From IMG/VR virus record IMGVR_UViG_3300009620_001332, positions 1 to 23,749 of that record: a stretch of 23,749 nt of DNA, one strand, 5' to 3'. This document shows positions 2,839 to 13,293 of the stretch, piece by piece. The notes beneath the pieces were generated by a model that saw nothing but the letters and a program-made list of their open reading frames with translations, had not been told where the DNA came from and searched no databases. The stretch is from a virus. How positions within the stretch are numbered: the stretch's first letter is position 1; each line of letters opens with the position of its first letter. The position numbers and the translations under genes are program-made.

Positions 2839-3720
2839 GTGATATCCACTATTGTCTTTTCAAAAGACAGAGCTTGTCAGTTAGATTTCTTGTTGACAAG
2901 TTTAATTCAAAATGACAACGGGTTATTCGACATCAATGTTTTGTATAGACATTCAAACGATGAATTTAAAACTGGCTATGAAAAATTGATAAAGAAATAC
3001 CCGTTTTTAAATTGGATTCAGGAGACTGATTTTCAAAAAGATACAACCGACCTTGTAAAAAAAGGAGGTGATCTAGTCTGTTTTTTTGTGGACGATAACA
3101 TCCTATATCGTAAAATAGAAGTTGATGAAGATATCATAACAAAACTTTTTGACAATAGGGATGTTTTTTGCTTGTCTTTAAGGCTCGGAACCAATACTAT
3201 TGTTCAGAATGAATACACGATGCAGGACTGTGTTCTTCCTATAAGAGGAGAGATAGCTGAAGATACGTTTTTTATATGGAACTGGATCTCTCAATGCGAG
3301 CATTGCAGAGCACCTTTAACGGGTAATTATGCGTATCCTTTTTCGGTTGATGGTCATATTTTTAAGAAAAGTTTAGTGGAGAAGTTCATAGGAAATGAAG
3401 ACGATTTTGTTAAAATCAAATTTTCAACACCCAACGCTTTTGAAGGAGGCATATGGGATAAGGGGTGGGAAGTGGATGATTTTCCTAAAAGTATGTCTTC
3501 CTTCAAAGAAAGCTTAGTCGTAAATACACCATTGAACTTAGTAGGCTCTTCAGAAAACATGTCTGGTCAAAAATTTGGAGTTTCCCTAGAGGAACTCAAT
3601 AAAAAGTATTTAGAGGGACACGATCCAGACTTGGACAATATGGATTTTTCAAACATTCAAGGATGTCATCAAGAAATTCAACTTAAATTTAAGGAGGTTG
3701 CTAATGTTAGATCTATTTAA
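2839..3720 (+). CDS. GT-A-like glycosyltransferase-family protein (paralogue of 14272-15135)
   Basis: A 293-residue protein starting at GTG 2839, with GAGGA eight bases upstream. The start (ISTIVFSKDRACQLDFLLTS) resembles the first strand and helix of GT-A folds: 'T-x-x-x-S-K-D-R-x-x-x-L-x-x-L-L-x-S-L'. An acidic FVDDN at residues 83-87 occupies the position of the metal-binding DxD motif. The window contains a clear paralogue at 14272-15135. Shared blocks include SLRLG-x-NTI-x-QN, PFS-x-x-GH, and a C-terminal G-(V/I)-SLE-(E/D)-LN block. The protein probably transfers a sugar or has evolved from such an enzyme. Overlap of 17 nt with the next gene suggests coupling. The glycosyltransferase assignment is inference from fold-like motifs and context. 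Confidence 0.6.
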   Translation: MISTIVFSKDRACQLDFLLTSLIQNDNGLFDINVLYRHSNDEFKTGYEKLIKKYPFLNWIQETDFQKDTTDLVKKGGDLVCFFVDDNILYRKIEVDEDIITKLFDNRDVFCLSLRLGTNTIVQNEYTMQDCVLPIRGEIAEDTFFIWNWISQCEHCRAPLTGNYAYPFSVDGHIFKKSLVEKFIGNEDDFVKIKFSTPNAFEGGIWDKGWEVDDFPKSMSSFKESLVVNTPLNLVGSSENMSGQKFGVSLEELNKKYLEGHDPDLDNMDFSNIQGCHQEIQLKFKEVANVRSI

Positions 3721-3901
3721 GAAGCACTGGCTTTGTCTTTTATTGGGAGTCGGACTGGGTTACTCACTTCACTGGTGTCCATTGCTTGGACATAGTCACG
3801 TATGCCCTCACGCCGCAGCAAATGCATGCGCCTGTGATGATTGCGAATGTGGCGCAGACTGTGCTTGTCTAATCGGGGAAGTATGTGGATGTAAGGGCTG
3901 A
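3704..3901 (+). CDS. Membrane-anchored cysteine-rich (metallothionein-like) small protein
   Basis: A 65-residue protein. ATG 3704 is chosen over an in-frame TTG at 3698 because AAGGAGG (3691-3697) then lies six bases upstream. Residues 1-8 are basic (LFKKH), and residues about 9-22 are hydrophobic, so this is a short N-terminal signal or membrane anchor. The rest is very cysteine-rich: C25, C34, C42, C44, C47, C49, C53, C55, C61 and C63, including four C-x-C pairs, plus H23, H30, H32 and H36. Such spacing is typical of metallothionein-like metal-thiolate domains. With no other domain present, a metal-binding or disulfide-rich envelope peptide is the best description. It is the last gene before a terminator. 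Function is unproven. Confidence 0.6.
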   Translation: MLDLFKKHWLCLLLGVGLGYSLHWCPLLGHSHVCPHAAANACACDDCECGADCACLIGEVCGCKG

Positions 3902-6027: not shown

Positions 6028-7077
6028 ATGACTGTTAGTACACACACGAGAACGCTAGGCATTACAGGAGCAGAAGCCACTGCAACAGTAACAGTTACTG
6101 ACTATGTGGAACTTAATACAGGCGACAAAGTTAATTTAATCGCTACTGATGGAACTAACTATGATTTTACAAACGGAGACCAAAGCTCGGTAGCTGGCAC
6201 TTGGGAGTCCACCGCAAGCAACGATCAAACTGCTACAAATTTAATGAACGTTATCAACACAGGCAGTGGACCCGCTGGAACCAGATTTTCTGCATCGGTA
6301 GATGGAGCGGTTGTTACCATTACACAGAGTTCCAGCAGCGAGGCCAGCCTCGAAGACGGAAACACAGCGATCACCCTCACGGACACTGCCCCCGCCGGTT
6401 TGACTAAAACAGACTTTACTGGTGGAAGCTCATCGGCAGTAGTTAATGATCGCGGCGTAGTTATGCAAGGCGGAAACATTGCCGGTTCAAAATATACAAA
6501 CAAGAGTATTTTGGATATCGTCAAAGGCGCAGATGAGTACGGTTCAAAGCTTGGTCTAGTTACAGGTACGGCACACAAGGTCGGTCTTGTTGTTGCTCGT
6601 AGCGTAGGAAGTCCCGCGTTTGCCTTCTTCCCGAAGAAGACAGATCGTACTGCTGCTAACTGCACCTTCTTGGCTAGAGGTCTTCAGACGCTGGTCGCTG
6701 GTGCTGCCTCAACAGAAAATATCATGGGAGTCCTCGGTCAGGACCAAGGCGCTCGCGGTATTCATCTTCATACTGACGATCACTACCAGAGGGGAAGCTG
6801 GGCTACGTTGGCATTCAACTTGTTCCGCAATCCTACTGCCGGGGATAACTCCGAAACTACCGGTCTCGTGCAAAGTGATGGAACGGTTAAAACTGGCGCT
6901 ACCAACTATGGCAGTGCTGCTATCTTCCGTAACTTGGCTGACCAAGATAATGCTAGACCAGTCACGAATGTTCCCACACGGGCCATTCCGGGTGAGCTAG
7001 TCTTCTTGGTTGACTTTGCTGATCGTTCAACCAGTGGTGGTAACTTTAAGGATTATTCAGCCATTACAGGCGGGTAA
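6028..7077 (+). CDS. Putative virion structural protein with inserted beta-rich domain (paralogue A)
   Basis: A 349-residue protein with a strong ribosome site. After a short N-terminal MTVSTH segment, residues about 18-130 form a Thr/Ser/Val-rich beta domain. It resembles the small repeats of phage tail and decoration proteins, with features such as DYVELNTGDKV, NYDFTNG, TATNLMNVIN and FTGGSSS. Residues about 135-349 are clearly homologous to the next gene, including HLHTDDHYQRGSWATLAFNL and the C-terminal SGGNF-x-DYSAITGG. Codon use is unusually GC-rich and regular against its neighbours, as in highly expressed proteins. A major or decoration protein of the particle is the best guess. I recognise no named family; capsid versus tail cannot be decided. 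Confidence 0.62.
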   Translation: MTVSTHTRTLGITGAEATATVTVTDYVELNTGDKVNLIATDGTNYDFTNGDQSSVAGTWESTASNDQTATNLMNVINTGSGPAGTRFSASVDGAVVTITQSSSSEASLEDGNTAITLTDTAPAGLTKTDFTGGSSSAVVNDRGVVMQGGNIAGSKYTNKSILDIVKGADEYGSKLGLVTGTAHKVGLVVARSVGSPAFAFFPKKTDRTAANCTFLARGLQTLVAGAASTENIMGVLGQDQGARGIHLHTDDHYQRGSWATLAFNLFRNPTAGDNSETTGLVQSDGTVKTGATNYGSAAIFRNLADQDNARPVTNVPTRAIPGELVFLVDFADRSTSGGNFKDYSAITGG

Positions 7078-7101: not shown

Positions 7102-7782
7102 ATGACTATTAGTACTCATGTTGGCACAGCAACTGGCTCTGGCGGCGCAGACAATGACGGTGGCGTCATCGCAGGCGCTGGCAATGTCGGTAGTTCAAGA
7201 TGGACAAGCAAAAGCAGCTTGGATCTTGTCAAAGGCGCAGAAGATTATGGCTCAAAGCTTGGTGTATCTACAGGCACAAAATACGTTGTCGGCCTTGCCG
7301 TTGCACGTAGCTTAAATAGTCCCAAGTTTGGCTTTACTCCTAAGAGGTCAGATCGTTCTGCCACCAACTCCACCTTTATGATTAAGGGAGCTTCAACAAA
7401 GGTAGCTAACATTACTTCCTCGGAAAGCATTCTGGGGCTTCTTGGAAGCGACCATAGTGTTCGAAGCCTTCATCTTCATACTGATGATCATTACCAAAGA
7501 GGCTCTTGGGCTACCTTGGCCTTTAACCTCTTTAAAAACCCGACTGCTGGCTCTACCAGCAATCACGGTCTTGTCCAAAGCGATCTTACGGATAAGAGCG
7601 GTGCTACCAATTATGGTACTGCTGCGATCTTCCGCAATATTGCCGATCAGGACAATGCCAGACCGGTTACAAATGTTCCCTCAAGAGCGATTCCGGGTGA
7701 ATTGGTATTCTTGATTGATTTCGTCACTCGCACAACGAGTGGTGGAAACTTCCAAGATTATAGTGCCATCACAGGCGGTTAA
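7102..7782 (+). CDS. Putative virion structural protein, short form (paralogue B)
   Basis: A 226-residue protein with an optimal ribosome site (AAGGAG at about 7089-7094). It aligns over nearly its whole length with the C-terminal two thirds of the preceding protein: LDLVKGAEDYGSKLGVSTGT, RSDRSATNSTFM, HLHTDDHYQRGSWATLAFNL, ATNYGTAAIFRN, DQDNARPVTNVP and DYSAITGG. It lacks the roughly 110-residue beta domain and has instead a Gly/Ala-rich linker (residues 10-30). The pair forms a dicistronic unit ended by the strongest terminator in the window, which suggests high, controlled expression. Probably a repeated particle component; function inferred from context and composition. Confidence 0.6.
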   Translation: MTISTHVGTATGSGGADNDGGVIAGAGNVGSSRWTSKSSLDLVKGAEDYGSKLGVSTGTKYVVGLAVARSLNSPKFGFTPKRSDRSATNSTFMIKGASTKVANITSSESILGLLGSDHSVRSLHLHTDDHYQRGSWATLAFNLFKNPTAGSTSNHGLVQSDLTDKSGATNYGTAAIFRNIADQDNARPVTNVPSRAIPGELVFLIDFVTRTTSGGNFQDYSAITGG

Positions 7783-7856: not shown

Positions 7857-8177
7857 ATGGAATCAGACATTCTCTCAATTCCTGTATTAGCCGCAATCGT
7901 TGCTATAGTAATAGGATTAGGAAAGGTTATTGAGGTTCTCATTTTAAAAGCGGTTCCTTCAAAGTCAGTTTTGATGGATGATGAAAGAGGCTGGATGCAA
8001 CATACTTACAAGATAATCTCTCGTCAGGATTCCGATGGAACGCCGTTAGTTTACGTTCCTAGGAGTTGGGCAGAAACTCAAAAAGATATGCAACAAGTGA
8101 TGATACAAATCGTTAATGATCAACGAAGAATCGCTGATATTCTAGACAGAATAGATAAAAAGCTAGAGGATAAATAA
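7857..8177 (+). CDS. Single-TM protein with C-terminal coiled coil
   Basis: A 106-residue protein. Residues about 6-30 (LSIPVLAAIVAIVIGLGKVI) form one membrane segment. The rest is soluble, with a beta-like middle (GTPLVYVPRSW) and a C-terminal helix (about 75-105, MQQVMIQIVNDQRRIADILD) with coiled-coil spacing. It lies directly after the terminator and two bases before a peptidoglycan-hydrolase-like gene. A lysis role (holin or spanin-like helper) or a scaffold for the membrane proteins that follow is plausible from position. No holin family is recognised with certainty. Confidence 0.5.
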   Translation: MESDILSIPVLAAIVAIVIGLGKVIEVLILKAVPSKSVLMDDERGWMQHTYKIISRQDSDGTPLVYVPRSWAETQKDMQQVMIQIVNDQRRIADILDRIDKKLEDK

Positions 8178-8179
8178 TA

Positions 8180-8860
8180 ATGATCTTAGTCCCTTACCAT
8201 GAAGCTAAGCAACACATCCGAGAAGCAGACGTACTCTTGTTTCGTGGTAAGGGACTATCTAGCTGGTTAATCAAACGGTATGGTAGCGGGGTTCATAGTC
8301 ATGCTGGCGTAGCTCACTGGGACGGCGAAAGACTGGCAAATGGGGAGATGGCTGGAGACGGCGGTCATTTACAGTGTGTGGAATTCAGAGAGTTTAAAGG
8401 TGGCAGGGCTGTTTCTATGAAAAGTCAGGTAGAAACTCACCCAGACAATATAGACGTTTTTAGAGCCGCCTCTCCCGTTGGATACTCTAATTTTTCTGCT
8501 TGGCCTGAAAACAAAGAGAAGAGATCAATAAAAATTGATTATAGCGAAGAAAAGATACAAAACCCTTTTACGCCAAGAGATATTACCGATGTCATGATAA
8601 ATCTAACAGGATTACCATACGGATGGAAAAATATATGGAAATTAGCAAGACACTATCTGCCATTTTGTAGGCTAGCGCCACAAAACATCAAGGATGATGA
8701 TCCCATGAATGTTTTTGTATGCAGTACGGCAGTAGCTTATGCTTATCGACAAGCATACATAGATCCTGTACCATATTTGGCAGACTCGGCTGTTATGCCC
8801 GCTGATTTGGCTAGGTCGGCACTCTTTAAATATCAATTCACCATAAGTAAGGACTGGTAG
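8180..8860 (+). CDS. YiiX-like / permuted NlpC-P60 papain-fold hydrolase
   Basis: A 226-residue protein matching the circularly permuted NlpC/P60 group (YiiX/YaeF-like). Near the N-terminus, ADVLLFRGKGLSSWLIKRYG is followed by HSHAGVAHWDG (H39/H41), which supplies the catalytic histidine. The nucleophile lies late in the chain, in FVCSTAVAYAY (C181), at the start of a long helix. This histidine-before-cysteine order is the signature of the permuted group, opposite to classical NlpC/P60 enzymes. Members cleave amide or thioester bonds of peptidoglycan peptides or lipids. Next to a membrane protein and two exported proteases, it could act as an endolysin-like enzyme or a particle-borne hydrolase. 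The substrate is not known; no signal peptide is seen. Confidence 0.68.
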   Translation: MILVPYHEAKQHIREADVLLFRGKGLSSWLIKRYGSGVHSHAGVAHWDGERLANGEMAGDGGHLQCVEFREFKGGRAVSMKSQVETHPDNIDVFRAASPVGYSNFSAWPENKEKRSIKIDYSEEKIQNPFTPRDITDVMINLTGLPYGWKNIWKLARHYLPFCRLAPQNIKDDDPMNVFVCSTAVAYAYRQAYIDPVPYLADSAVMPADLARSALFKYQFTISKDW

Positions 8861-8862
8861 CC

Positions 8863-10911
8863 ATGAAAAAACTAATGCAAGCTTTAGTTTTGGGGCTGGT
8901 TTTATACTTCCCATCTTTGGGATTTGCTCAGCCGCTTACGATGGACGAGGCTTTGGAAGGAGTATGCAGGGTTACTACTAGAGGTTCCGCAGGCAGCGGG
9001 ACCGTATTTCAGGAAGACGAGGATAAATATTATGTTCTGACTAACGGACATGTGGTTGGTAGATCTAAAAGAGGTCATTTAGAATTCTTTCAAGACGGCT
9101 ACAAATCTGCCATGATCCCATTCAGAACAGAATATTCTGAATATAAAGAAGGCACCGCTCTAGACTTAGCAATTGTGTCTGTTAAAAAGAAGTATTTTGG
9201 TAGATTCCCTCCTAGAGTAATACCTCTTGCTCCGAAAGGGACAGAGATAAAAGCTAACGATTTAGTTATAGCTGGAGGGTGTCCTTCTGCTCAGTGGGCT
9301 ACCGCATGGAAGGGTAGAGTCCTTAGAAACGCAGGGGCTACCGTAAGCTTTAATGCTGCGCCCCTTGGTGGTCAGTCTGGAAGCGGCGTTCTTGTCCTTG
9401 TCAAAGATGACAAAGGAGAGAGTCATACTAGACTAGGTATCCTTCTAGCTTGGAGAATAGGAGACGGCGCATGGACAGATGATGGGCCAAACGACTATGG
9501 TGCTGGCTTATCTCTAAGACAGATCTACGAAATAATGGAGGGAAATGGTCAAGGCCATCCCATAGAAGCTTCTTATAGCATTGTTGCCGATAAAGAGGTC
9601 AAGTCCAGTAAGCCAGAGCGCCTTAACAAGCTCTGTCCACAATGTGGACGTAAAATTGAAGACCATGTCGTCATTCCCTATAAAGGGGGTCTTAGAAAGA
9701 CCACTAAGGGTGAGTTTATGTTTTGCCCCGAGCTTAAGTTTCCAGATGGCGGCATCGCAGATACTGCTAAATACTATGGGGGTATAAGAGTTGGCGAACT
9801 ATACGATAGTAATGGCTTATTCCCTTGGTGTCCTTGGGGTAATAGCCCTCCAAATCCAAACCCTCCCCCTAACCCACCAGACGGCGGCGGAAACGGTGAT
9901 GGGTGGAATGGTTGGCCCGGTAGACCAGACCCCGGTGGCCCCGTAGATCCTCCTACAGATTTTGAAAAGGAGCGTCAGGAATACCTTGATAAGATTTCAG
10001 GACTACAGGAAAAACTGACCAACCTCGAAAATATGTCTGATAGCGTTCAAGCTGAATTACAAACAAAACTAAATAGTTTGGAATCTTTATCTGAAGGTCT
10101 TAAAGCGGAACTTGGTGGAACAAACAGCAATCTTTTAGAGGCGCAAAACGCGGTTAACGGTTTGAGAGATCTCTTAGGGGCTGTCGAGGGACAAAAGGAT
10201 TCTCTAAAATCTAAAATAGGCGTCCTAGTGGGAACAATTGACGCAAGAGATGCACAGATATCAGATTTAGAGGCTAACAGTGGCCACTACATGGACGATT
10301 ATACCGGCGGTAATGGCAATAGCGTAGAAAATGTCAGCTTTACGCTTGGTGGTATGAGTCTAGGCATGCTGGCTCTTAAATACGGAGTTCCTTTCCTTCT
10401 AAACAGGAGACGACGAAAAAAGAAAAACGGAAAAAACATTGACAAAGATGATGAAGAGGGGTATGATAATGATACAAGACCATCTACACCGCAGTCTGCC
10501 GTAGATGACGACTGCAATAACTGTGATGGTTCTCATACACACGTCCATGAACATATTCATAAGCACCGGCACGAGAACGAATACGTTATGCCGCTAGATG
10601 AATTGCCAGAAGCTCCGAGAGCTACAGAAGATATTGATGATAGAACTGGTAAACATGGACTAAATCCGGGGTTTGTTCCTTATGGATTTCCTGTGAGCGA
10701 ACCTTATCATCAACAACCAGTTGCTATGCAAGGATTGCCACCGCAATTTTTGAATGTACCGTTCAGCACACGGAAACAAGCTACTGCTGAACAGATCATG
10801 ACGGTATTTGGAGAATTAGTAAATGAATACCAAAACGATCAAACGATGACAATGAGACAAGTTGACACATTGATACGTCATAGACTTAAACAGAAATTTA
10901 ACATAGAATAA
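8863..10911 (+). CDS. Membrane-anchored trypsin-like serine protease, multi-domain
   Basis: A 682-residue protein. Residues 1-22 are a Sec signal peptide with a likely cut after GFA. Residues about 30-230 form a chymotrypsin-fold (S1-type) protease with the triad H63 (TNGHVV), D101 (LDLAIV) and S172 (GGQSGSG). A putative zinc-binding unit follows: C258 and C261 (CPQC), C288 (FCPE), with C323 a possible fourth ligand. Then come a Pro/Gly-rich linker (about 327-365), a coiled coil (about 367-470), one membrane segment (about 492-510) and a stop-transfer run of Arg/Lys. The tail (about 515-682) is acidic, with a His-rich patch (558-573) and a C-terminal helical segment. Expected topology is protease outside, tail in the cytoplasm. 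No PDZ domain is seen. The call as protease is firm; its substrate is not. Confidence 0.82.
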   Translation: MKKLMQALVLGLVLYFPSLGFAQPLTMDEALEGVCRVTTRGSAGSGTVFQEDEDKYYVLTNGHVVGRSKRGHLEFFQDGYKSAMIPFRTEYSEYKEGTALDLAIVSVKKKYFGRFPPRVIPLAPKGTEIKANDLVIAGGCPSAQWATAWKGRVLRNAGATVSFNAAPLGGQSGSGVLVLVKDDKGESHTRLGILLAWRIGDGAWTDDGPNDYGAGLSLRQIYEIMEGNGQGHPIEASYSIVADKEVKSSKPERLNKLCPQCGRKIEDHVVIPYKGGLRKTTKGEFMFCPELKFPDGGIADTAKYYGGIRVGELYDSNGLFPWCPWGNSPPNPNPPPNPPDGGGNGDGWNGWPGRPDPGGPVDPPTDFEKERQEYLDKISGLQEKLTNLENMSDSVQAELQTKLNSLESLSEGLKAELGGTNSNLLEAQNAVNGLRDLLGAVEGQKDSLKSKIGVLVGTIDARDAQISDLEANSGHYMDDYTGGNGNSVENVSFTLGGMSLGMLALKYGVPFLLNRRRRKKKNGKNIDKDDEEGYDNDTRPSTPQSAVDDDCNNCDGSHTHVHEHIHKHRHENEYVMPLDELPEAPRATEDIDDRTGKHGLNPGFVPYGFPVSEPYHQQPVAMQGLPPQFLNVPFSTRKQATAEQIMTVFGELVNEYQNDQTMTMRQVDTLIRHRLKQKFNIE

Positions 10912-10923
10912 GTGGAGGCAAAA

Positions 10924-11724
10924 ATGCCAGAAGTAAATGAAAACTTAGTTATCCCTACTCACGATGCAATTCTTCCTTACATGTTTGAGGGAGTAAAGTG
11001 GGCTATTCCTAATGTTGGCGACAACAAGGAAACCCACAACATGGCAATTGCTCGCCTGTTTGAAAAGATTGGTGAGCATCTACAAGCATTTTCAGTGCGT
11101 ACTGATTGCTTTGTCCCCGGTCCTCCTACACTGTCTGCTGTCAAGCATCATCACAACATGTTTGTCCGTTTGTGCAACTTAATTGACACAAATACAAAGC
11201 CAGATAACATGGAAAGACTTGAAGCTCATCATATCACACATGAGCGTAGAGCTTTCAAGATTTATCCGATTCGTTATTTCGATGTCAAGAATGACTACTG
11301 CCGTCGATGGATCGAGCTTTGTCTTCAGGGCTTGAGTGATATGGCTCAGCTTTCTGAGAATACTTGGGCCAATGACTGGAGTGTCCAGACTGGCAAAGAG
11401 ATGAAAAAGCTTTTCCGTGAAGCTTACCGTCTTATGGCTGTTGAGTTGTTTAGGGTTCCCGTCATTGAAGCTCACTCAGTGTTTGATGAAGAAAACTCCT
11501 TCTATCTGACAAAAGAGCATTTCGATGGTTATGATGTCAGTCATATTCCAACAATCGAGTGGATTAAGCATCCTGCTCTCGGTAGCGAATTCACAGAAGA
11601 CGAACTTCGTCCAATTTCAACTCCTAACGTTCCGGTGGCACCCGGTGTTGCAGAGAACGAAGGCAATACGCCCCAGCGTGAGCTAGAGCGTAGAATGCAA
11701 GGTGGCGGCGAAGTAGTCAACTAG
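10924..11724 (+). CDS. Conserved-looking hypothetical protein, probably abundant
   Basis: A 266-residue protein. ATG 10924 is preferred over GTG 10912 because GGAGG (10914-10918) then sits five bases upstream. It is a soluble, mostly helical protein with many His and Trp residues (e.g. VKHHHNMF and LEAHHITHERR), ending in a Pro/Val-rich and Gly/Glu-rich tail. Codon use is GC-richer and more regular than the flanking protease genes, like the virion pair at 6028-7782, suggesting high expression. It is closed by a terminator at 11743-11784 and lies between the two exported proteases, so it could be a particle protein or a protease partner. No family is recognised. Confidence 0.55.
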   Translation: MPEVNENLVIPTHDAILPYMFEGVKWAIPNVGDNKETHNMAIARLFEKIGEHLQAFSVRTDCFVPGPPTLSAVKHHHNMFVRLCNLIDTNTKPDNMERLEAHHITHERRAFKIYPIRYFDVKNDYCRRWIELCLQGLSDMAQLSENTWANDWSVQTGKEMKKLFREAYRLMAVELFRVPVIEAHSVFDEENSFYLTKEHFDGYDVSHIPTIEWIKHPALGSEFTEDELRPISTPNVPVAPGVAENEGNTPQRELERRMQGGGEVVN

Positions 11725-11810: not shown

Positions 11811-12752
11811 ATGAAAAAAGCAATCTTGAGTTCTATTCTACTTCTTCTTATATTCTCCGCTCCCTTGCTAGGGAATGACAAACAGCTTTACCAACACCTA
11901 CAAGATGTATCTGTTACGGTAAAGTCTGGCTTCGGAGAAGGTTCTGGAGTAATTTTTACTCGAACCATTCCCATTACTAAAATTCAACCACCCGAACTAG
12001 GTAAACCTCTTACGGTAAAGGTAAACTTCGTGTGGACAGCGGCTCATGTTGTAGATGGTCTCCGTTCCGTTAGGACAACAATCAAGGATGGGCGATCAGT
12101 AAAGATTGTTGAATTTAAAGATGCTCAAATCGTCCAAGAATTAGTCGAAGATGGCCGTCGTGTTGGTGAGTTCAAGATGGAAGCCAAGGTTATCAAATAT
12201 AGCGATTCCGAAAACGGGGAAGACTTGGCCCTTCTAATGATTAGGAAGAAGGGTTTTATTGACAAGTCAGTCACCTTCTTTAAGGCTGAAGGTAAACCTG
12301 TGCCTATTGGTACTGAATTATATCATGTAGGCTCATTATTAGGACAAACTGGCTCAAATTCGATGACGCGAGGAATTTGTTCTCAAGTTGGAAGAGTTCT
12401 TGACTTGGGGGCGGGTGGTGGTGTAATATTTGACCAGACAACCGTTACGGCTTTCCCCGGATCAAGCGGGGGTGGAGTTTTTCTCAGCGAGAGGTCTGGC
12501 AAAGATGCGGGTCAGTACGTTGGAATGCTTGTCAGAGGCGCTGGAGAAACATTCAACCTAATTGTTCCAATTCGTAGGATGCGAGCTTATGCTGAAAAAG
12601 AAGGCATCTTGTGGGCTATCGATTCAGATCATCCCGTCCCTGCCCTAAAAGAAATTACGGAGTTGTCAATTGAAGGTGGATCATCAAAGAACAAAACCGG
12701 AAAGAGTATCTTGACCAAAGATAGTGTCAAGTTTCCCACGCTACTTAAATAA
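11811..12752 (+). CDS. Secreted trypsin-like serine protease
   Basis: A 313-residue protein with a strong ribosome site (AAGGAAGGA) and an N-terminal signal peptide (residues 1-21, MKK then a leucine-rich core, ending near LLGND). The chymotrypsin-fold triad is H79 (TAAHVVD), D138 (EDLALL) and S219 (PGSSGGGV). The histidine motif is preceded by a long insertion (about 40-70). A C-terminal Ser/Lys-rich tail (about 285-313) has no membrane segment, unlike the first protease. The similarity to HtrA/DegP-type peptidases is limited to the catalytic domain; no PDZ domain is present. Probably acts in the periplasm or outside the cell, or is packaged. It is followed nine bases later by a two-TM gene. 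Substrate unknown. Confidence 0.82.
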   Translation: MKKAILSSILLLLIFSAPLLGNDKQLYQHLQDVSVTVKSGFGEGSGVIFTRTIPITKIQPPELGKPLTVKVNFVWTAAHVVDGLRSVRTTIKDGRSVKIVEFKDAQIVQELVEDGRRVGEFKMEAKVIKYSDSENGEDLALLMIRKKGFIDKSVTFFKAEGKPVPIGTELYHVGSLLGQTGSNSMTRGICSQVGRVLDLGAGGGVIFDQTTVTAFPGSSGGGVFLSERSGKDAGQYVGMLVRGAGETFNLIVPIRRMRAYAEKEGILWAIDSDHPVPALKEITELSIEGGSSKNKTGKSILTKDSVKFPTLLK

Positions 12753-12761
12753 AGGATAGCA

Positions 12762-12989
12762 ATGTTTAAGAAGATTTTTGATTGGTACATGGAACAAAAA
12801 ATGAGTTACATACTGTTATCTATCTACCTTGTGGCGGCTATTACGGCGACCCTCGGTATACCGGGGCGTGAAGGATTGGTTCTTTGGGCTTGGGGCACTG
12901 GAGCAACTTTAATACTCGGTCCTTGGATGTGGTCCCTTAATAGGATTAACAAACAAACGACAGGAAAGAATCTCTGGGACAATGGATAA
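12762..12989 (+). CDS. Small two-TM membrane protein
   Basis: A 75-residue protein with AAAGGA upstream of ATG 12762. It has two hydrophobic segments (about residues 14-34, SYILLSIYLVAAITATLG, and 38-59, with WAWGTGATLILGP) joined by a short GREG turn, with a charged tail (NRINKQTTGKN). This size and topology resemble class II holins, but no family is recognised. It overlaps the thioredoxin-fold gene by 8 nt, so the two are likely translated together and the membrane protein may act with it. Confidence 0.5.
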   Translation: MFKKIFDWYMEQKMSYILLSIYLVAAITATLGIPGREGLVLWAWGTGATLILGPWMWSLNRINKQTTGKNLWDNG

Positions 12990-13293
12990 AAAAGATCTTC
13001 AGGTAGTAGTTTTTGTAACTAGCTGGTGTCCTCATTGCAAGAACATGAAAGATTCTGTGTGGACTGACCAGACCGTTCTTGAGTCGGTTAAGCCATATTT
13101 CGAAGGCATACCAGCTATTGTCCCGGTTGATAAACCCGGAAATGAATACTTATCTCAGCAGTTTAATATTGAAGTGTTTCCAACCGTAGTCATTATGGAC
13201 GAATCTCGTAAGGTACTTAGACGTGCAAAAAACATGACTAAAGAAGAAACCATAAAGTTTTTGGAAGAAACTGATAACGATGACAATCAGTAA
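12982..13293 (+). CDS. Thioredoxin-fold protein (CPHC active site)
   Basis: A 103-residue protein. VVFVTSWCPHCKNM contains the redox motif C16-P-H-C19, the DsbA-type sequence. The cis-proline loop is VFPTVV with P67. A short strand/helix end (ESRKVLRRAKNMTKEE) completes a one-domain thioredoxin fold. No signal peptide is present, so cytoplasmic activity is likely unless it is exported otherwise. It overlaps the genes on both sides (8 nt and 14 nt). Phage thioredoxins or glutaredoxins commonly reduce ribonucleotide reductase, and a NrdJ with a C-terminal Cys pair is encoded downstream, so a role as its reductant is possible. Disulfide chemistry for the secreted proteins is an alternative. Confidence 0.78.
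   Translation: MDKKDLQVVVFVTSWCPHCKNMKDSVWTDQTVLESVKPYFEGIPAIVPVDKPGNEYLSQQFNIEVFPTVVIMDESRKVLRRAKNMTKEETIKFLEETDNDDNQ

Follow-up and report, generated by a model that had tools for sequence, protein, structure and literature searches.

Why would a phage encode an exported trypsin-like protease that continues, within one polypeptide, into a coiled coil, a hydrophobic segment and a conserved C-terminal tail? The question is raised by an open reading frame (ORF) in viral record IMGVR_UViG_3300009620_001332, analysed here over a stretch of 23,749 nucleotides (hereafter the window). An earlier note, made from the letters alone, had described its product, P0001, as a chain of signal peptide, protease with an H-D-S triad, cysteine unit, linker, coiled coil, membrane segment, acidic His-rich patch and helical tail. 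This layout is real: the ORF begins with ATG, contains no internal stops and encodes these elements in 682 aa, the membrane segment being a putative one.

8863..10911, + strand: whole gene, trypsin-like protease P0001 with putative membrane stalk, 682 aa (intact ORF; 31 homologous phage loci)
8863..8931, + strand: signal peptide, residues 1-23 (basic N-terminus; cut predicted by eye after LGFA)
8932..9567, + strand: trypsin-like protease domain, residues 24-235 (PF13365 and triad)
9049-9051, 9163-9165 and 9376-9378, + strand: catalytic codons of H63, D101 and S172 (triad conservation)
9610..9834, + strand: cysteine unit CPxC...C...C, residues 250-324 (family A only; C323 common to family B)
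9835..9960, + strand: Pro/Gly-rich linker, residues 325-366 (alignment; equivalent linker in family B)
9961..10275, + strand: coiled-coil stalk, residues 367-471 (heptad signal, model helices)
10333..10401, + strand: hydrophobic, putative transmembrane segment, residues 491-513 (GxxxG at G497 and G501, followed by RRRRKKK)
10405..10578, + strand: acidic and His-rich patch, residues 515-572 (family A only)
10732..10908, + strand: C-terminal helical tail, residues 624-682 (conservation, dN/dS 0.05)

Conservation of the window protein in family A

Homologues of P0001 at 31 phage loci, all on separate IMG/VR viral contigs and some near-identical, constitute family A (18 found with P0001 and 30 with an alignment, combined). 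One of them, L001, from IMGVR_UViG_3300025274_001348, is identical to window positions 1-20908. Recurrence on separate contigs rules out an assembly join or frameshift between protease and tail, a doubt that the earlier note had itself raised. The family A alignment, A2, contains the window and 23 of the 31 loci, its 24 rows forming 21 clusters at 95% identity; L001, four loci identical or nearly so to kept rows (L004, L005, L012 and L013) and three truncated ones (L016, L017 and L044) were left out.

Pfam Trypsin_2 (PF13365) matches residues 44-177 of P0001 at E 3.4e-8 (34.8 bits, cut-off 27.6), and the triad H63, D101 and S172 is invariant in all 24 rows of A2 as well as in the 16 rows of a more diverse protease alignment (A12). 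The best 15-residue hydropathy of the signal peptide is 2.02, and its A22 is present in every A2 row. Six cysteines (C35, C140, C258, C261, C288 and C323) are kept throughout A2, and those of the cysteine unit may form a zinc-binding site. The acidic and His-rich patch is little conserved overall (6 of its 58 columns are invariant), and the C-terminal tail retains 26 invariant columns out of 59. Across seven pairs of A2 rows, dN/dS is 0.03 in the hydrophobic segment, 0.05 in the tail, where pS is itself low (0.24) and the ratio less certain, and 0.06 in the protease; the remaining seven segments give 0.10-0.21. The hydrophobic segment, the tail and the protease are the most constrained parts of P0001.

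Gene context of family A

The gene lies in a block of five, which runs from a small membrane protein through a YiiX-like hydrolase, the protease and the gene g10912 to a second protease. The block is complete at 26 of the 31 family A loci and is cut by contig ends at the other 5.

7857..8177, + strand: small protein with an N-terminal hydrophobic segment, candidate holin (hydropathy of the G003 homologue, block membership)
8180..8860, + strand: permuted-papain (YiiX-like) hydrolase, candidate endolysin (profile match to PDB 3kw0)
10912..11724, + strand: g10912, 270 aa, proposed cytoplasmic partner (directly downstream of the protease at 36 of 36 loci)
11811..12752, + strand: second exported trypsin-like protease, 313 aa (PF13365, E 6.6e-10)

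Family matches of the candidate holin are all weak and sub-threshold (E 0.06-0.07). The hydrolase, which we take to be YiiX-like from its motif, has a profile that matches the "cysteine peptidase" 3kw0 at E 0.0015 and PHROG family phrog_1128, labelled enoyl-CoA hydratase-like, at E 1.8e-8; a Pfam scan and a comparison with phage records each returned zero matches for it. The second protease begins within 400 bp downstream of g10912 at 36 of 36 loci, and no C-terminal hydrophobic segment is seen in it by eye.

Several other genes were noted nearby. A small Cys-rich protein of 67 aa (window 3698-3901), to which Pfam gives no match, is encoded at 23 of 31 family A loci; the remaining 8 begin downstream of it. 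Two tandem paralogues, possibly structural (window 6028-7077 and 7102-7782; 68% identity across 210 aa), were seen at some family A loci only. A thioredoxin-like protein (window 12982-13293) scores above its Pfam cut-off, and thioredoxin-like proteins or stretches also lie near or inside trypsin-like proteins at L168:7389-7874, L170 and L191-L193 (mostly by eye). Genes for tmRNA are found at L027:18151-18493 (-) and L031:7704-8041 (+), on the contigs of L007 and L001; both were confirmed by Rfam RF00023 (135 and 133 bits) and by ARAGORN, with tags AEKQYALAA and AEKQFALAA. In the 161-kb relative G003, the proteins scanned include rIIA/rIIB-like and MotA/ExbB-like ones, and 1 of 73 matches Pfam MotA_ExbB. 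A MotA/TolQ/ExbB-like gene followed by one for a TolR-like, one-segment protein was seen, mostly by eye, at L021:11191-12921, L116:7882-9035 and L161:13712-15428, with a third membrane protein after the pair in L021 and L161 (by eye).

Recurrence of the domain order in diverged phages

A search with an alignment of the YiiX-like hydrolase led to sister phages that have no family A gene at the corresponding place. The A2 profile matched a diverged protease elsewhere in the genome in 3 of 6 sister records, and matched three family A records too. These diverged proteins define family B, represented by five full proteins with ORFs of 762-800 aa, in which signal peptide, protease, CPxGxCPP, Pro/Gly linker, coiled coil, hydrophobic segment and cytoplasmic part follow one another in the order of P0001. 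Thus, the domain order that the earlier note had proposed to seek in other phages was found, and with it homologues that share the architecture. Profile alignment (hhalign) joins the two families with 100% probability from residue 1 to the coiled coil; anchor and tail were not joined by sequence in this comparison. After the coiled coil, both families present a glycine-bearing hydrophobic segment, a basic flank and a predicted cytoplasmic part, which in family B is longer and helical-looking. In the joint alignment of families A and B (A9), C323 is the only one of C258, C261, C288 and C323 to remain, and the family B rows contain neither the His patch nor the CPxC unit. These two elements are features of family A, and a general role for them in the architecture is not supported. 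A matrixin-type metalloprotease with a lipoprotein-like start was seen near the family B protease at L116:5257-5886 (Pfam M10, E 2.6e-29), and another matrixin-type protein at L118:11132-11743 (by eye).

A combined profile reached 68 loci, comprising 30 of family A, 5 of family B and 33 others, from which 28 ORFs were read (L175, L178, L180, L181 and L184 were left out). Thirteen of the 28 (L153, L154, L161-L169, L171 and L172) carry a C-terminal-proximal segment that reaches a hydropathy of 1.5-1.7. L156 has the same layout, but no segment reaching 1.5; L170 is short and ends in a thioredoxin-like stretch; and none of the 13 ORFs read among L173-L190 shows a C-terminal segment. Trypsin_2 exceeds its Pfam cut-off in all six relatives scanned (L116, L153, L156, L161, L166 and L193). 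The layout is common in nearer relatives, not universal. Near the stalked protease of L153 are, by eye, a TatA-like protein of 75 aa (L153:5647-5874) and an exported YiiX-like protein (L153:5928-6449), for which neither Pfam nor the YiiX-like profile gave a hit.

A common cellular origin was considered and rejected, the first genome scan having yielded 0 relatives among 368 pattern matches. In the second, 4 cellular loci turned up among 101; three came from planctomycetes, and one was weak. A search of this phylum, in which some first-look candidates were scored per genome, gave a match at E 1e-12 in 1 of 246 genomes, the seed itself. The planctomycete proteins L191 (Rhodopirellula rubra), L192 (Rubripirellula obstinata) and L193 (strain K23_9) resemble P0001 in their signal-like start and trypsin-like domain and, by eye, in a C-terminal hydrophobic segment and basic tail. 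They differ in that no coiled coil was seen in them, and L193 differs further in a thioredoxin-like stretch (E 0.0078, below cut-off). The combination of export signal, protease and C-terminal hydrophobic segment recurs in further phage and planctomycete relatives, so uniqueness of the plan is not supported. Searches of 50,697 phage records produced no match to P0001, a family B protein, the L153 protease domain or the L166 protein, and the protease domain of P0001 alone drew four chance-level matches there at E 10. As read from these sequences, what the group has in common is a protease predicted to be exported and anchored near its C-terminus, to which families A and B add a coiled-coil stalk and an exchangeable cytoplasmic module.

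Tail classes and their neighbouring genes

The proposed cytoplasmic partner of family A is the product of g10912. Its gene follows the protease directly at all 36 loci found with g10912's own profile (35 by BLAST hit and L070 via the full ORF of the same contig, L018), and its alignment of 16 rows has a mean column identity of 85%. Pfam assigned g10912 to no known family, and among phage records it obtained one chance-level match only (E 0.06). It was found in 3 of 3 family A records searched and in none of 6 sister records, which are fragments, so that the absence is weak evidence.

All five full family B proteases are followed by a different protein, of 211-214 aa. A 216-aa homologue of this type B partner comes after the protease of L156, whose tail shows homology to those of family B. 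In L119, from G010, a fourth of the six sister records, the sequence begins inside a family B tail and the type B partner gene comes next. A relationship between g10912 and the 211-aa protein was tried and rejected (hhalign probability 0.75%). Tail class therefore tracks the downstream gene, with g10912 in family A and a non-homologous 211-aa protein beside B-type tails. Since neighbouring genes are conserved in these phages anyway, the evidence for pairing amounts to few independent lineages. L153 and L161 have different tails, and the flanks retrieved for them contained neither partner type, as did those of L191-L193. The earlier idea of a tether linked to a cytoplasmic partner has gained circumstantial support, in that the tail is constrained like the protease and its class follows the neighbouring gene.

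The AlphaFold model of g10912 is mostly helical and poor (mean pLDDT 50.4). A fold search with this weak model gave no credible match (best E 0.66), and a globin-like fold, suggested by eye, found no support in that search, in a PDB profile search or in Pfam.

The hydrophobic segment and the stalk

The segment at residues 491-513 has a 19-residue Kyte-Doolittle mean of 1.37-1.46 in all 24 A2 rows, against a usual threshold for a membrane segment, taken here as 1.6; the corresponding values in the five family B proteins are 1.02-1.57. K506 and P510 lie within it and are invariant in A2, and a rough insertion score is positive, i.e., unfavourable. Outside the signal peptide, the hydrophobic segment is nonetheless the strongest in 12 of 12 rows of A9, and G496, G497 and G501 are invariant across both families in the same rows. 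We treat insertion of this marginal segment into the membrane as likely. It resembles the GlyGly-CTERM sorting signal, which lies at the extreme C-terminus of its proteins, but this assignment was rejected: 169 residues follow the segment in P0001, so its position is wrong, and GlyGly-CTERM is missing from the 15 NCBIfam families that a search with full-length P0001 listed at E 10.

In each of the 12 rows tested, heptad periodicity in the coiled coil, defined as the longest proline-free stretch, exceeds that of 500 shuffles (p <= 0.006). The stretch spans 87-139 residues, which as a straight helix would measure 13-21 nm, or 16 nm in P0001. In structure prediction, another check that had been proposed, the stalk helices were modelled at residues 367-416 and 421-471 with low to moderate confidence, within a poor model overall (AlphaFold, mean pLDDT 44.5).

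Comparison with known proteases and spanins

Comparisons can be made with several established systems. Like HtrA/Deg proteins (DegP and DegS, of the S1 type), P0001 has an exported trypsin-like domain, and in a search of solved structures with the diverse protease profile, HtrA and V8-type proteases were nearest (best E 2.4e-8); the family A profile alone reaches solved proteases only at E 0.6. P0001 differs from HtrA in that a Pfam scan at E 0.1 detects no PDZ domain, as the earlier note had said, and HtrA models in NCBIfam score far below their cut-offs (e.g., 13.6 bits vs 416.2). Relative to the anchor position in DegS, that of P0001 lies on the C-terminal side, after linker and coiled coil. 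V8-type glutamyl endopeptidases share the fold class (profile match E 2.3e-7), but their listed chains are 216-274 residues long, whereas in P0001 the stalk, anchor and tail come after the domain.

A different resemblance is to the unimolecular spanin of phage T1, gp11, which according to PMC6139136 has an N-terminal export signal and a C-terminal transmembrane segment. P0001 likewise has an N-terminal export signal, and its segment towards the C-terminus is conserved but marginally hydrophobic for a transmembrane one. Unlike gp11, it contains a protease domain and a coiled coil and has no lipobox: its signal peptide ends LGFA-Q, without the lipobox cysteine, and lipobox scans of the window found none for the gene and no lipobox ORF near it. 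Two-component spanins pair an i-spanin bearing an N-terminal type II segment with an o-spanin lipoprotein, whereas P0001 has an export signal and a C-terminal segment. P0001 is therefore a Trypsin_2 protein, placed outside HtrA because PDZ is missing and outside the spanins because the lipobox is missing, which could still function in a spanin-like manner. A literature search that covered few subscription journals returned no paper that we recognised as treating an architecture of this kind.

Proposed mechanism

The reading that we favour, with moderate confidence, is that P0001 is a type I inner-membrane protein which holds its protease on a periplasmic stalk of 13-21 nm and whose tail docks a partner encoded by the neighbouring gene. 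The Sec system would export the N-terminus, and the trypsin-like domain would gain activity in the periplasm. The hydrophobic segment and its basic flank would then halt transfer, leaving the C-terminus inside the cell. Two or more copies, paired through the coiled coil and GxxxG, would form a rod at whose end the protease would stand some 13-21 nm away from the membrane (16 nm in P0001), within reach of peptidoglycan or of the outer membrane. On the cytoplasmic side, the conserved tail would dock the g10912 product, which may recruit or gate the complex, and the protease would cleave host envelope proteins, most likely late in infection.

Read directly from the genes are an intact protease with its triad, heptad periodicity, an order that both diverged families conserve, an anchor and a tail under strong constraint, and constant pairing with g10912 in family A. 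Membrane insertion, oligomerisation, partner binding, substrate and timing are the steps that we infer. The weak points of this reading are the marginal hydrophobic segment and the poor structure models.

Possible roles in infection

What such a protein is for can be read in several ways. A tentative possibility is lysis or egress, in which the protein would act like a spanin: once holin and endolysin had done their work, its type I anchor and stalk would carry the protease across the periplasm, where it would cleave proteins responsible for tethering or shaping the outer membrane. The gene follows the small membrane protein and the YiiX-like hydrolase at 26 of 31 family A loci, although the lysis roles of those two genes are themselves candidate assignments and the family B protease lies apart from the YiiX-like gene. 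The stalk length of 13-21 nm is also consistent with this role. No recognised endolysin appears among the families listed for 103 of the 188 predicted G003 ORFs (including the best 25 of 37 and the best 25 of 79 matches), nor in the tape-measure protein. Clear lipoprotein genes were not seen either: each of the 13 all-frame lipobox hits in G003 overlaps a longer predicted ORF, 3 of the 4 in genome G001 are contained in longer ORFs, and the single hit in the window is antisense to a longer ORF. The rules used here were home-made and were relaxed after a stricter version missed a clear family B lipoprotein of L116. Against the lysis role, one 97-aa lipobox candidate remains in G001 (39450-39743), and the family B cluster of L116 has the lipoprotein-like metalloprotease. 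PMC6139136 (section 15) names type I inner-membrane proteins with a C-terminal anchor as possible i-spanins, which would allow such a role for P0001.

A more specific form of this proposal, a proteolytic spanin, can be put forward as an improbable case: in phage lineages without a recognisable lipoprotein spanin, the periplasm-length coiled-coil stalk of a type I protein would, during lysis, present an active protease to the outer membrane, and a phage partner dedicated to this task would control it from the cytoplasmic side. The remaining 97-aa candidate in G001 lowers its likelihood.

Superinfection exclusion seems unlikely. Here the stalked protease would work at the infected cell's own envelope, trimming receptors or the proteins of arriving phages; export and tethering would confine its activity to that cell, and further exported proteases do lie nearby in some lineages (the window, L116, and L161 by eye). 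In L162 and L166, however, the gene sits by eye inside the head-tail block, between capsid and head-tail genes, which suggests late expression.

The same positions, together with those in L169 and L171, where the gene follows tape-measure and tail genes (by eye), would suit a membrane-anchored morphogenesis protease or a particle-associated one, as would the two paralogous, possibly structural proteins just upstream in the window. We give little credence to such a virion or assembly role: in G003 about 93 kb separate the gene from that of the terminase, with terminase and tape-measure genes on the opposite strand, and a signal peptide is atypical of tailed-phage virion proteins.

It is quite unlikely that the protein is a transmembrane sensor or anti-defence switch, by which periplasmic events would change the tail-bound partner, or the reverse; the constraint on the tail, equal to that on the protease, and the match between tail class and partner gene would fit, but Pfam scans recognise no signalling domain in tail or partner. 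Finally, a soluble or surface-bound periplasmic protease whose hydrophobic segment is not inserted, as the marginal hydropathy and the invariant Lys and Pro might suggest, is improbable given that families A and B agree in where the segment lies, in its glycines and in the basic flank, and that 13 of 28 more distant ORFs, L156 not among them, reach 1.5-1.7 near the C-terminus.

Implications for phage biology

P0001 and its relatives define a phage protein architecture in which an exported protease, a putatively anchored stalk and an exchangeable cytoplasmic module occur together in several phage lineages. Tail, partner and protease are separately testable even without a spanin-like role. Were the proteolytic spanin to prove true, disruption of the outer membrane would in these phages be enzymatic rather than brought about by membrane fusion. 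In PMC6139136, about 13% of the genomes analysed are reported to have no spanin found; if P0001 does act in a spanin-like manner, it would answer the question posed there of how some spanin-less phages open the outer membrane.
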